Shown here piece after piece: positions 50,114-54,624 of a stretch of 64,000 nucleotides of DNA. Position 1 is the stretch's first letter; every line of letters begins with the position of its first letter. The notes below the pieces were generated by a model, which worked only from the letters and a program-made list of their open reading frames with translations, did no database searches and was not told the origin of the DNA. Source of the DNA: Candidatus Hydrogenedentota bacterium (lineage in GTDB: Bacteria > Hydrogenedentota > Hydrogenedentia > Hydrogenedentales > JAJRTN01); NCBI GenBank assembly GCA_024278275.1, contig JAJRTN010000159.1, forward strand, positions 1 to 64,000. Reading direction: 5' to 3'. A program made the translations under genes and the position numbers.

Positions 50114-51517
50114 TTACCGAAGCTTGAGCCCGTGCTTCTTGAGCGTGGCGTAAACATGGGGCCGCGACAGACCGGAAATCCGGCAGGCGGCCTCAATGTC
50201 GCCCTCCGCCCGGCGTACCAGTTCAGTCATGTAAACCTTTTCAAACTGGTCGCGCATCTCCCTGAAAGGACCGAGCGTTTCGGAAAGGCCGACCTTATCC
50301 TTCGAATCCGTTTCGACGGGCCCGGGAGCGGGGCTTTGAACAACATGGGCTCTTGCCAGGGGTACGCGAACGCTGATGGGGAGGTGATTGGCAAAGAGAA
50401 TAGGATCGATGCCCGCGTTCACCACGGCCGCGGCAATGGCATGGGACAACTCCCGGACATTTCCGGGCCAGTGGTGGGCCTGAAGCGCCTCCGTGAAGTC
50501 TTCGCTCACGCCGGGAATATCGCGGCCCCGAAGATTGCATTCGCGCCGTATGAAATGGGCGGTCAGCAGGGGCAGATCTTCAAGCCGCTCGCGCAAGGGA
50601 GGCAGTGGGATGGTCACCGAACGCAACCTGAAAAGAAGATCCTGCCGAAAAAGGCCCCGGGCCACCATCCGGTCAAGATCCTGGTGGGTGGCCGCAATGA
50701 CCCGGAAGTTGCTTTGTTGCTCGGTCTGGGCGCCAACAGGGCGGAAGCGGTGTTCCTGCAACACGCGAAGAAAGGCGCGCTGAATCGCGGGGGGCATCTC
50801 ACCCACTTCGTCCAGAAAGAGTGTTCCCCCGTTGGCCTGTGAAATGAGCCCCTGGTGGCTTTGGTCCGCACCGGTAAAAGCACCCTTCTCATGCCCGAAA
50901 AGCATGCTGCCAATAAGCGTTTCGGGCAGTGCGGCGCAATCCACGACGACAAAAGGTTCCAAGCCGCGGGCGCTGTTTTCGTGGACGGCCCTCGCGAGGA
51001 GTTCCTTACCCGTTCCGGTCTCACCCACGATAAGCACATCCACATCGCCGTTGGCGGCCCGGGCCGCCATGTCCAACGCAATCCGCAAGGCGGGCGCGTG
51101 CCCCACGATGTCGGGGGTGTGGAAAACGACGTGTTCCACCGCGGCCAACCGGCTCTCCCGGTACTGCATGGCCCGGGATAGAGATAAAAGGATTACTTTC
51201 GAGGAAAAGGGCTTTTGGACAAAATCCCATGCACCGCACCGCATGGCCAGTTCGGCGCTTTCCGTGTCGCCCGCGCCGGTGATGATAATCACCTCGGGCG
51301 GCCACACGCCGGACTTCAGCCGGGGAAGCACATCCAGTCCCGAGCCGTCGGGGAAACGCAAATCAAGGAAGATGATGTCGAAGGCCGTGCGCGCCGCGGC
51401 GTCGAGCCCATCCCGGAGCGAATGGGCCAGCGAGACATGATGGCCCGCCCGCGCAACATGTTTTGCCAAGACGTTACTGACATCCTTGTCGTCATCAAGA
51501 ATCAGAATCTGGCCCAT
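50114..51517 (-). CDS. NtrC-type sigma-54-dependent response regulator
   Basis: A 467-aa transcription activator. Receiver at residues 1-115, with acidic pocket LDDDK, phosphoacceptor D52 and K102. AAA+ domain at about 135-360, with Walker A GETGTGKE (165-172), the sigma-54 contact loop GAFTGA (212-217) and Walker B GGTLFLDEVGEMP. A Fis-type HTH lies at about 425-467 (AACRISGLSRPHVYATLKKH). All key residues are present, so it should drive sigma-54 promoters after phosphorylation. No cognate kinase is adjacent, making it an orphan here. Confidence 0.94.
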   Translation of the reverse strand: MGQILILDDDKDVSNVLAKHVARAGHHVSLAHSLRDGLDAAARTAFDIIFLDLRFPDGSGLDVLPRLKSGVWPPEVIIITGAGDTESAELAMRCGAWDFVQKPFSSKVILLSLSRAMQYRESRLAAVEHVVFHTPDIVGHAPALRIALDMAARAANGDVDVLIVGETGTGKELLARAVHENSARGLEPFVVVDCAALPETLIGSMLFGHEKGAFTGADQSHQGLISQANGGTLFLDEVGEMPPAIQRAFLRVLQEHRFRPVGAQTEQQSNFRVIAATHQDLDRMVARGLFRQDLLFRLRSVTIPLPPLRERLEDLPLLTAHFIRRECNLRGRDIPGVSEDFTEALQAHHWPGNVRELSHAIAAAVVNAGIDPILFANHLPISVRVPLARAHVVQSPAPGPVETDSKDKVGLSETLGPFREMRDQFEKVYMTELVRRAEGDIEAACRISGLSRPHVYATLKKHGLKLR

Positions 51518-51829: not shown

Positions 51830-54010
51830 ATGCAAGTCTTGGTCACGGGGGGCGGCGGCTACCTGGGCTCCTGTCTCGTGTCGAGGTTGCTCCACGCGGG
51901 ACACCGCGTCAGGGTTTTCGACCGGTTCTGTTTCGGGCGGGAAGCCCTTGAAACACTGGCGGCAAACAACGGGTGCGAAGTGGTGGAAGGCGATGTTCGC
52001 CGCCTGCAGGAGCACCCGGAGCTGCTGGACGGTGTGGAAGCCATCATGCACCTCGCCAGCCTGTCGAACGATCCCTCCTGTGATCTCGATGCCGACACCG
52101 CCATGGATGTCAACGTGGAGAGTACCATCGAACTGGCCCAGCGGGCGGTGCGCGCCGGTGTGGGCCGCTTCGTGTTGGCTTCTTCATGCAGTGTCTACGG
52201 GCTGGGGGTTTTTGAACTCCTCGACGAGGAAAGCCCCGCCAATCCCGTTTCCACGTTCGGGAAGAGCAAGCTGGCCGCCGAAACGGCCCTGCGGGCCATG
52301 GCATCCCCTCATTTCACGCCCGTCGTGGGACGCACCGCCACCCTCTTCGGGTTGGCGCCCCGCATGCGTTTCGACCTTGCCGTCAACCAGATGGTGGCCA
52401 CCGCCGCGCGCCAGGGGCGCATCGAGGTGCGCGGCGGTGGCAATCAATGGCGGCCTTTCATCCACGTGCGGGATGCCGCGCGGGCCTTTCAGCTCTTTCT
52501 CGAAGCCGACGCTGCGGTCGTGGGGGGCGAAGTCTTCAACGTGGGGGCGGACGAGTTCAACCTCCGCATCGCCGATTTGGCGGCACTGGTGGCCGCCCAC
52601 TTTGAAGGGATCCGGGTGGATCGGGCCACGGATGACGATGACCTGCGCAACTTCCGCGTCCTTTTCGGCAAATTGAAGGAGCGGCTCCATTTTCTCCCGA
52701 AGCACACCCTGGAAGAAGGCATCATCGAGGTGCGCGGCTTCCTGGATGACCCGACCGTCGATCCCTTCGACGAAGCCTTTTTCAACGTGTACCGCATGAA
52801 AACCCTGCGCGCCACGCCCGTGGATGAAGGCGGCGAGCCGGTGGCCGCCCGCTTTGTTCCCCTGGCCCGGCCCAACCTCGGCCCCGAGGAGGAAGAGGCC
52901 ATTCTCACCGCCCTTCGAGGCGGGTGGATCACGTCGGGGGACCGAATCGCCGCCTTTGAGCGGGCCTTTGCCGACACGGTGAACGCGCCCCACACCGTGG
53001 CCGTGAACTCCTGCACCGCCGCCCTGCACCTGTGCCTGGCCGAGGCCGGTGTGAAGGCGGGCGACGAGGTCATCAGCCCGCCCATCACCTGGAGCAGCAC
53101 GGGCAACACCCTGCTGAACATGGGCGTCACGCCCGTTTTCGTGGACGTGGAGGCCGATACGCTCAACGTCAATCCCGACCTGGTCGAGGCGGCCATCACG
53201 CCCCGCACCCGGGCCATCATCCCCGTTCACATGGCCGGCCAGCCCTGCGACATGGCACGGCTCCAGGAAATCGCCACCCGCCACGGCCTGCCCCTCATCG
53301 AGGATGCCGCCCATGCCCTCGGCGCCGCCCGCGACGGTGTGCCCGTGGGTGCCACGGGCAACCCCACCTGCTTCAGTTTCTACGCCATCAAGAACATTAC
53401 CACCATGGAGGGCGGCATGATCGCCCTCAAGGATCCCGAGACCGCCGCGCGGCTCCGTCTCCTTGCCGCCAACGGCATGGAGGCCACCGCCTGGGACCGC
53501 TATGGCCGCAGCGCCGTGGCCGCGCCACGGGAGGTCGTGGCGCCCGGCTTCAAGTTCCTCATGGGCAACGTGAGCGCCACCATGGGCATCGAGCAACTCA
53601 AGAAGTTTCCCCAATTCATGGCCGCGCGCCGTCGCCTGGCGCAAATGTACCGTGCCGTACTCGCTGAGATCGACGAGATCGAGCTGTTGCGCGTGTGTCC
53701 CGGAGTGGAACACGCCTGGCACCTCATGGTGATCCGTTTGAAGCTGGATCGCCTCGACCGAAGCCGCGACGAGATCGCCTATTTGCTGCGCCAGGAGAAT
53801 ATCGGGACGGGCGTCCACTTCTACGGACTCCATTTGCACCGGTACTACCGGGAACATCTGGGCATGAAGCCTGAAGACCTGCCCGAGGCCACGCGCGTAT
53901 CCCATGAGATCCTCTCCCTGCCCCTGCACCCGCAAATGACCGACAAAAACGTGCATGAGGTGGTGACGGCGCTCAAGAAGGTCATTCATCACGTCCGGCA
54001 CACCTCCTGA
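51830..54010 (+). CDS. fused NAD-dependent epimerase/dehydratase and DegT-type aminotransferase
   Basis: A 726-aa two-domain protein, probably for nucleotide-sugar biosynthesis. Residues 1 to ~325: extended SDR with GGGGYLG (7-13) for NAD. The catalytic Y-x3-K motif reads F143-G-K-S-K147, so the Tyr is Phe. Residues ~345-726: DegT/DnrJ/EryC1/StrS aminotransferase with NSCTAALHLCLAEAGV, IEDAAHALG and the PLP lysine K521 in SFYAIKNITTMEGG. The start at 51830 has GGGAG eight bases before, while ATG 51815 and the frame from 51704 are unsupported. A 4-keto-sugar made by another enzyme could be aminated here, e.g. for surface glycan amino-sugars. The domains are normally separate genes. Confidence 0.9.
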   Translation: MQVLVTGGGGYLGSCLVSRLLHAGHRVRVFDRFCFGREALETLAANNGCEVVEGDVRRLQEHPELLDGVEAIMHLASLSNDPSCDLDADTAMDVNVESTIELAQRAVRAGVGRFVLASSCSVYGLGVFELLDEESPANPVSTFGKSKLAAETALRAMASPHFTPVVGRTATLFGLAPRMRFDLAVNQMVATAARQGRIEVRGGGNQWRPFIHVRDAARAFQLFLEADAAVVGGEVFNVGADEFNLRIADLAALVAAHFEGIRVDRATDDDDLRNFRVLFGKLKERLHFLPKHTLEEGIIEVRGFLDDPTVDPFDEAFFNVYRMKTLRATPVDEGGEPVAARFVPLARPNLGPEEEEAILTALRGGWITSGDRIAAFERAFADTVNAPHTVAVNSCTAALHLCLAEAGVKAGDEVISPPITWSSTGNTLLNMGVTPVFVDVEADTLNVNPDLVEAAITPRTRAIIPVHMAGQPCDMARLQEIATRHGLPLIEDAAHALGAARDGVPVGATGNPTCFSFYAIKNITTMEGGMIALKDPETAARLRLLAANGMEATAWDRYGRSAVAAPREVVAPGFKFLMGNVSATMGIEQLKKFPQFMAARRRLAQMYRAVLAEIDEIELLRVCPGVEHAWHLMVIRLKLDRLDRSRDEIAYLLRQENIGTGVHFYGLHLHRYYREHLGMKPEDLPEATRVSHEILSLPLHPQMTDKNVHEVVTALKKVIHHVRHTS

Positions 54011-54057: not shown

Positions 54058-54624
54058 TTGCCGACCTTAGCTAAATGCGCTCGTTGTAAAGAATTATTCC
54101 TCCAGGAGGATCAACCGGTCTGTCCAAGCTGCTGGCCCCAGGAGGAGGCGGAATACGCCCGAGTGCGAGAGGCCCTGGATTTCCGCGAAGGATTGACGGC
54201 CCCGGAGGTGGCCTCCGTGGCCCAGGTAACGCTGGATGTGGTGACGCGCATGCTGGATGGGGGGCGCATCGGGGGTAACGGAACGGAGGAACCACCCCGT
54301 TGCGGTTGCTGTGGTGCCCCCGCCATCAGCCACAGCAAGCGCCTCTGTCAGGCCTGCCTCATCAAGCTGGACCAGGAATGCGCGGAAGCCATGCGCGACC
54401 TTCGTAAGCGCATGAGCGGTTTTGCCACGGCGGGCATTCACCAGGTCCATGCCGCCCTGTCCGCCAAACGCAAGGGCCGGGCCGGAGATCGGATTGAAAG
54501 GGCTTTTTCCGAAGCAAACGCGGCCTCTACCGCACCGGGTACGGGGGGCATGCGCATGGGCGTGGTGGTCCCCCGAAACCGTGCCGGGCGCGCCGAACGG
54601 GGCAGCCGCCAGCCCGCGCATTGA
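54058..54624 (+). CDS. double zinc-ribbon protein with HTH-like region
   Basis: A 188-aa protein starting with TTG, with GAGGAG nine bases before it. It contains two Cys clusters: CARCKELF...CPSC near residues 7-25 and CGCCGAPA...CQAC near 82-100. Between them is a possible helix-turn-helix (LTAPEVASVAQVTLDVVTRM). A basic, Gly/Arg-rich tail follows. The layout recalls small flagellar-operon or DNA/RNA-binding zinc proteins (YvyF/FlgN neighbourhood types), but no family can be assigned with certainty. It follows the epimerase-aminotransferase gene by 47 bases. Confidence 0.65.
   Translation: MPTLAKCARCKELFLQEDQPVCPSCWPQEEAEYARVREALDFREGLTAPEVASVAQVTLDVVTRMLDGGRIGGNGTEEPPRCGCCGAPAISHSKRLCQACLIKLDQECAEAMRDLRKRMSGFATAGIHQVHAALSAKRKGRAGDRIERAFSEANAASTAPGTGGMRMGVVVPRNRAGRAERGSRQPAH

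Follow-up and report, generated by a model that had tools for sequence, protein, structure and literature searches.

The SDR proteins form a very large enzyme superfamily, for which textbooks give the catalytic tyrosine as the acid/base. The closest relative with a solved structure of the SDR studied here is Cj1427, which oxidises C4 of GDP-heptose and whose tightly bound NADH is recycled by 2-oxoglutarate (PMC10680097). In 4,6-dehydratases, the catalytic Ser/Thr is followed by one of the pairs DE, DK or SE (table in PMC8987622). Two of these, the UDP-GlcNAc 4,6-dehydratases WbpM and PglF, have Met in place of the Tyr (Mx3K) and are active enzymes, and for PglF it has been proposed that a Thr-Asp pair stands in for the tyrosine (PMC8987622). 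The effect of an engineered Tyr-to-Phe exchange is also described: Rv3634c Y146F is inactive (PMC5389812), and the UDP-glucuronate 4-epimerase of B. cereus (BcUGAepi) carrying Y149F, through a TAC to TTC exchange like the one considered here, keeps its NAD+ but is 1.2x10^3-fold slower, and is faster at high pH (PMC7984243).

Here, we describe a natural protein with Phe at this position, encoded in a 64,000 nucleotide stretch of DNA from a Candidatus Hydrogenedentota bacterium, referred to as the window. The gene is a single open frame of 726 aa followed by a stop, with no frameshift in its translation, see Table 1. Pfam assigns Epimerase (PF01370) to residues 3-239 (E 1.4e-42) and DegT_DnrJ_EryC1 (PF01041) to residues 351-715 (E 1e-119, 400 bits). 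In the full-length AlphaFold model, which used 53 homologous fusions as input, both domains are complete and the mean pLDDT is 93.5, while the SDR half modelled alone reaches 94.1. The initial annotation, made from the sequence only, had described a one-frame fusion of an SDR and a DegT-type aminotransferase with GGGGYLG at 7-13, F143-x3-K147 and K521, and this description is confirmed by the translation, the two Pfam domains and the homologous fusions. A literature search for this exact SDR-aminotransferase fusion found none.

Table 1. Features of the fusion gene and of the gene downstream of it (positions in the window).
Feature	Position	Strand	Evidence
SDR-aminotransferase fusion gene	51830..54010	+	Translation; Pfam; fusion kept in 55/68 genomes of the order
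Extended SDR domain (NAD-dependent epimerase/dehydratase fold), residues 3-320	51836..52789	+	PF01370; AlphaFold; Foldseek
GGGGYLG NAD-binding glycine motif, residues 7-13	51848..51868	+	G7, G10, G13 invariant (53 fusions)
S118-S-C-S-V-Y-G124 with active-site Ser/Thr (S119)	52181..52201	+	Alignment with PelX S121 and Cj1427
F143 codon TTC, at the SDR catalytic Tyr position	52256..52258	+	Translation and alignment of fusions
K147 codon AAG, SDR catalytic/NAD-binding Lys	52268..52270	+	Kept in 37/37 Phe-type fusions
P177-RMRFDL-183 motif, common to Cj1427	52358..52378	+	Alignment with 6vo6; R178, M179, R180, D182 invariant (53 fusions)
Q206-W-R208, putative nucleotide-sugar pocket	52445..52453	+	Conservation in the order; absent only in L096/L110
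Interdomain linker, residues 321-342	52790..52855	+	Domain limits
DegT/ArnB-type PLP aminotransferase domain, residues 343-720	52856..53989	+	PF01041; ArnB 1mdo; Foldseek ArnB
PLP lysine K521 codon	53390..53392	+	K521 in 60/60 sequences covering the site
Small zinc-ribbon, cysteine-rich protein, distant YvyF/TIGR03826 relative (below cut-off)	54058..54624	+	TTG start

The SDR half is an extended SDR, with the GxxGxxG Rossmann signature and the acidic D31 (G7, G10, G13 and D31 are all invariant). Its catalytic S/T...Y-x3-K set is however incomplete: S119 and K147 are present, while the Tyr is replaced and the Y-x3-K position reads F143-G-K-S-K147. A profile search with this half ranks Cj1427 first (6vo6, E 1.5e-60), and Foldseek places the Cj1427 structures 6VO8 and 6VO6 on top with TM 0.87-0.92. 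The two proteins have the PRMRxDLxVN motif in common and both lack the acid/base pair of the 4,6-dehydratases, as the window has C120-S121 after the catalytic Ser/Thr. Thus, in nearest sequence, fold and motif the SDR half follows the C4-dehydrogenases of the Cj1427 type, but not in the catalytic Tyr, which Cj1427 keeps (S-E-Y-G-I-D-K aligned to S-T-F-G-K-S-K of the window). Cj1427 is also a stand-alone protein, about 30% identical to the SDR half, and its GDP-heptose substrate is not implied for the fusion.

The other half has the PF01041 fold and the PLP lysine of the DegT/DnrJ/EryC1/StrS proteins. It is closest to ArnB, the UDP-4-amino-4-deoxy-L-arabinose aminotransferase (1MDO, 1MDX, 4OCA, 8SNJ), both by profile (1mdo, E 2.2e-91) and by Foldseek (TM 0.95). 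With ~40% identity the two share the PLP Lys and core residues; however, ArnB is stand-alone and its substrate-pocket residues are different, and with 371.8 bits against a cut-off of 631 the half falls outside the NCBIfam ArnB equivalog. The residues D492, H495, Y518 and K521 do not vary, each being found in 60/60 of the sequences that extend over these sites.

Within Candidatus Hydrogenedentota, where the search set is one order with 68 genomes, a match to the fusion (E<=1e-120) is found in 55 genomes; nearly all matches span both domains and a few are truncated at contig ends. Outside the phylum, sampled by a single scan of one genome collection, fusions with the same domain order occur in 7 genomes: a Myxococcales bacterium, Streptomyces, Longimycelium, two Nocardia, a Clostridia bacterium (a copy cut by the contig end) and one further bacterium. 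A frameshift or an assembly join between the domains, which the initial annotation named as a possible refutation, is excluded by the shared frame and domain order in these two sets of genomes. Around the Streptomyces and Myxococcales members the fusion is sporadic, as it is found in 1/200 and 1/3 genomes, respectively, in each case the starting genome alone. The domain trees suggest that the fusion arose once. The public label of one record titled Nitrospiraceae bacterium (JAACEL010000107.1, L010) is probably wrong, since its fusion is identical to that of a genome from the window's order (L047, L113).

Searching for homologues and aligning position 143, as the initial annotation had proposed, gives the following pattern. 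Within the order, the residue is Phe in 37 and Tyr in 15 of the 54 copies covering the site, and the remaining 2 lack this region; outside the phylum it is Tyr in 7/7 fusions. The Phe codon is TTC in 21 copies and TTT in 16; as both are in use, Phe has been maintained while its codon changed synonymously, which excludes a read error. An explanation of F143 as an error of sequencing or assembly, or as a local pseudogene, can practically be dismissed given Phe in 37 independent genomes with both codons, the uninterrupted frame and the low omega of the SDR half given below.

The direction of the change was taken from a tree of the aminotransferase half, which is independent of the SDR half. In this tree Tyr143 is ancestral and three Tyr-to-Phe changes are required; a quick full-length tree gives four Tyr/Phe changes, and some branches of the trees are weak. 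The oldest change lies at the base of a clade of 37 rows (35 Phe and 2 degenerate) and the others are in L059 and L055. In the large clade Phe143 is kept in 35/35 non-degenerate members and never reverts, which suggests that Phe is selected for, beyond mere tolerance. Judged from these trees, the F143 of the window is an old inherited state of one large clade, to which two parallel gains are added. In the window's own genome, nearly all PF01370 proteins with an alignable motif, among the 30 best loci, have Tyr. One other, L141 (C127:22243-23064), is an extended SDR with Phe at the Tyr position (SVFGASK), and we take it to resemble CDP-paratose 2-epimerase-like proteins.

Apart from the tyrosine, the site is conserved. 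In the Phe group S118, Y123, K147, R178, M179, R180, D182, Q206 and R208 are kept in 37/37 fusions, all of which have either Ser or Thr at residue 119. Of the 70 SDR positions that do not vary among the outside fusions, those of the cofactor and pocket are 98-100% kept in the order. In its 52 non-degenerate copies, retention is 100% for the glycine motif, D31, R178-M-R-D182, Q206 and R208; W207 is found in 51/52 (Q206 and R208 in 52/52) and C120 in 50/52, while Tyr143, though invariant outside, is retained in just 29%. Residue 119 is Ser/Thr in 51/52, with Ala in L109, a contig-edge sequence. The full S/T-Y-K set survives in only 11 copies of the order.

Counted by lineage, the catalytic losses are Tyr-to-Phe three times, Lys-to-Ser/Asn once, Ser/Thr-to-Ala once and deletion of the whole site in one genus. 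The Lys loss concerns a separate lineage (L084, L089 and L099), where Tyr143 is kept and Lys147 is Ser or Asn. The deletion is seen in L096:8555-10597 and L110:2865-4913 (genus g9), where the SSCSVYG and QWR segments are gone and Y-x3-K is unrecognisable; still present in these fusions are the N-terminal portion of the Rossmann fold and the RMRFDL motif, and their aminotransferase is intact.

Purifying selection acts on the SDR half in both groups, with omega 0.05-0.22 for close Phe-type pairs and 0.06-0.18 for Tyr-type pairs. These values are close to those of the aminotransferase half (0.04-0.24 for the pairs in which omega could be computed). As the Phe-type omega is similar to that of the Tyr-type, Phe is not part of a general decay; a general decay of the SDR in Phe lineages is ruled out by the low omega together with the SDR/AT distance ratios, 1.25 (Phe) vs 1.17 (Tyr). 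Relaxation is found only in L096/L110, with an SDR omega of 0.36 and an SDR/AT dN ratio of 4.05.

Because K147 and S/T119 are strictly retained in the Phe clade and Phe does not revert, it is a serious alternative, though less likely than the reading favoured below, that the SDR half of the Phe type still works as an oxidoreductase and does not depend on the tyrosine, the proton being taken by Ser/Thr119, Cys120, a water ordered by K147, or hydroxide. This would agree with the strict conservation of the other active-site, NAD- and sugar-pocket residues, with an SDR omega this low, and with WbpM and PglF being active with Met for Tyr (PMC8987622); the BcUGAepi Y149F mutant also still turns over, and faster at high pH (PMC7984243). 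However, Tyr-to-Phe mutants of relatives are dead or very slow, what is a Thr-Asp pair in PglF is Ser/Thr119-Cys120 in the fusion, and the most shifted columns contain no new acid/base residue that changes together with Phe. Columns 201, 104, 121, 471 and 665 differ between the Phe and Tyr groups and were considered as candidates for a compensating residue, but rejected. At columns 201, 104 and 471 the parallel Phe gains L059 and L055 depart from the main Phe clade, and these columns therefore look like clade markers.

The surroundings of the gene were also examined. The zinc-ribbon gene starts 47 bp downstream of the fusion; homologues exist on 15 fusion-bearing contigs and in several of these the homologue is the next downstream gene, which suggests that the two are co-transcribed, a putative link that does not imply a functional tie. 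Immediately upstream and divergent lies an NtrC/AtoC-like sigma-54 response regulator (50114-51517, minus strand). A biosynthetic operon was considered and rejected, as there is no conserved sugar-pathway neighbourhood around the fusion within the order, and PADLOC gives no defence-system match. On a Pantoea agglomerans plasmid (L117:5995-8596), an SDR gene lies next to a separate aminotransferase gene, with NUDIX and EamA-family transporter genes after them, and this pair is likely a two-gene counterpart of the fusion. NUDIX and inositol-monophosphatase-family genes lie 3' of the Streptomyces fusion, and a NUDIX gene lies 3' of one Nocardia copy.

We tentatively suggest, with a confidence slightly short of even, that the protein is ancestrally a fusion that oxidises C4 and then aminates it, and that in the window's clade the oxidase half has become a module for binding ligands, its redox activity being small or absent. 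Ancestrally, the SDR half with bound NAD+ would oxidise the C4-OH of a nucleotide-sugar to a ketone, which the ArnB-type half would turn into an amine using PLP. In the window's clade, the catalytic Tyr became Phe in one old event and has remained so. The Phe-type SDR half would have become inefficient at moving the C4 proton, and could have been kept as a folded binder of NAD(H) and nucleotide-sugar, serving as scaffold, for substrate capture or for sensing. The productive chemistry would fall to the aminotransferase half, whose 4-keto sugar may come from another enzyme or be made in situ, but only slowly.

We favour this ligand-binding reading because different catalytic residues have been lost separately while the binding residues and the aminotransferase are kept. 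It is also supported by Tyr-to-Phe being the mutation used to disable relatives; among the Foldseek matches, 8RDI (Y145F), 6WJ9 (S121A/Y146F) and 6ZLJ (Y149F) are such engineered mutants. The similarity of the two halves to Cj1427 and ArnB, as well as the Pantoea gene pair, also count in its favour. Counted against it, the Phe-type proteins preserve S118, S/T119, Y123 and K147 beyond the needs of a mere scaffold (the retention of K147 could be explained by NAD binding), the Phe of the large clade does not revert, purifying selection on the SDR is close to the Tyr-type level, the Ser/Thr-to-Ala loss comes from a single contig-edge sequence, and an oxidase that is 10^3-fold slower may still be fast enough in the cell. 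The proposal in the initial annotation of a non-catalytic or altered SDR half that hands a 4-keto intermediate to the aminotransferase stands in part: a loss or change of chemistry is plausible, but the rest of the active site is strictly kept. A 4-keto sugar is indeed expected, refined to a plain 4-keto and not a 4-keto-6-deoxy sugar, because the nearest solved SDR is the C4-dehydrogenase Cj1427 and the 4,6-dehydratase signature is absent.

Two further readings give the SDR half control over its partner. In one, which we regard as unlikely, the dehydrogenase half is silenced phylum-wide and would hold NAD(H) and sugar, sense or present the sugar and govern the aminotransferase; if true, the Tyr-to-Phe change that nature has fixed is the one by which crystallographers trap substrates. 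In the other, which is improbable, the SDR half would be a slow or single-turnover gate, where the NAD(H) redox state or the bound sugar regulates the aminotransferase and Phe has been selected as a block on turnover. Such a gate is consistent with Phe in every non-degenerate clade member with both codons used, with the kept ligand-site residues and with the bound NAD+ in the related BcUGAepi Y149F (PMC7984243), but communication between the halves is without direct evidence and one genus has deleted the pocket yet keeps the aminotransferase.

The fusion probably adds an amino group to activated sugars. Automatic annotation would label it a normal epimerase/aminotransferase, and thereby assign a reaction that it possibly does not perform. 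The natural Tyr, Phe, Lys-loss and site-deletion variants, all on an intact aminotransferase, form a ready-made test of the role of the SDR half, and also bear on whether this half can work without the tyrosine.

Among known systems, WbpM and PglF resemble the SDR half of the window in being natural extended SDRs with the catalytic Tyr replaced. However, they have Met and not Phe, they are dehydratases without a fused aminotransferase, and they use a Thr-Asp-Lys acid/base set that is absent here (S119-C120-S121 in the window, S/T-C-S/A across the fusions). In couples of the WbpB/WbpE type a ring carbon is oxidised and then aminated, with glutamate/2-oxoglutarate linking both steps; WbpB is a Gfo/Idh/MocA dehydrogenase that acts at C3 and is a separate protein from the aminotransferase. 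The fusion is like such a couple in the idea of oxidation followed by amination.
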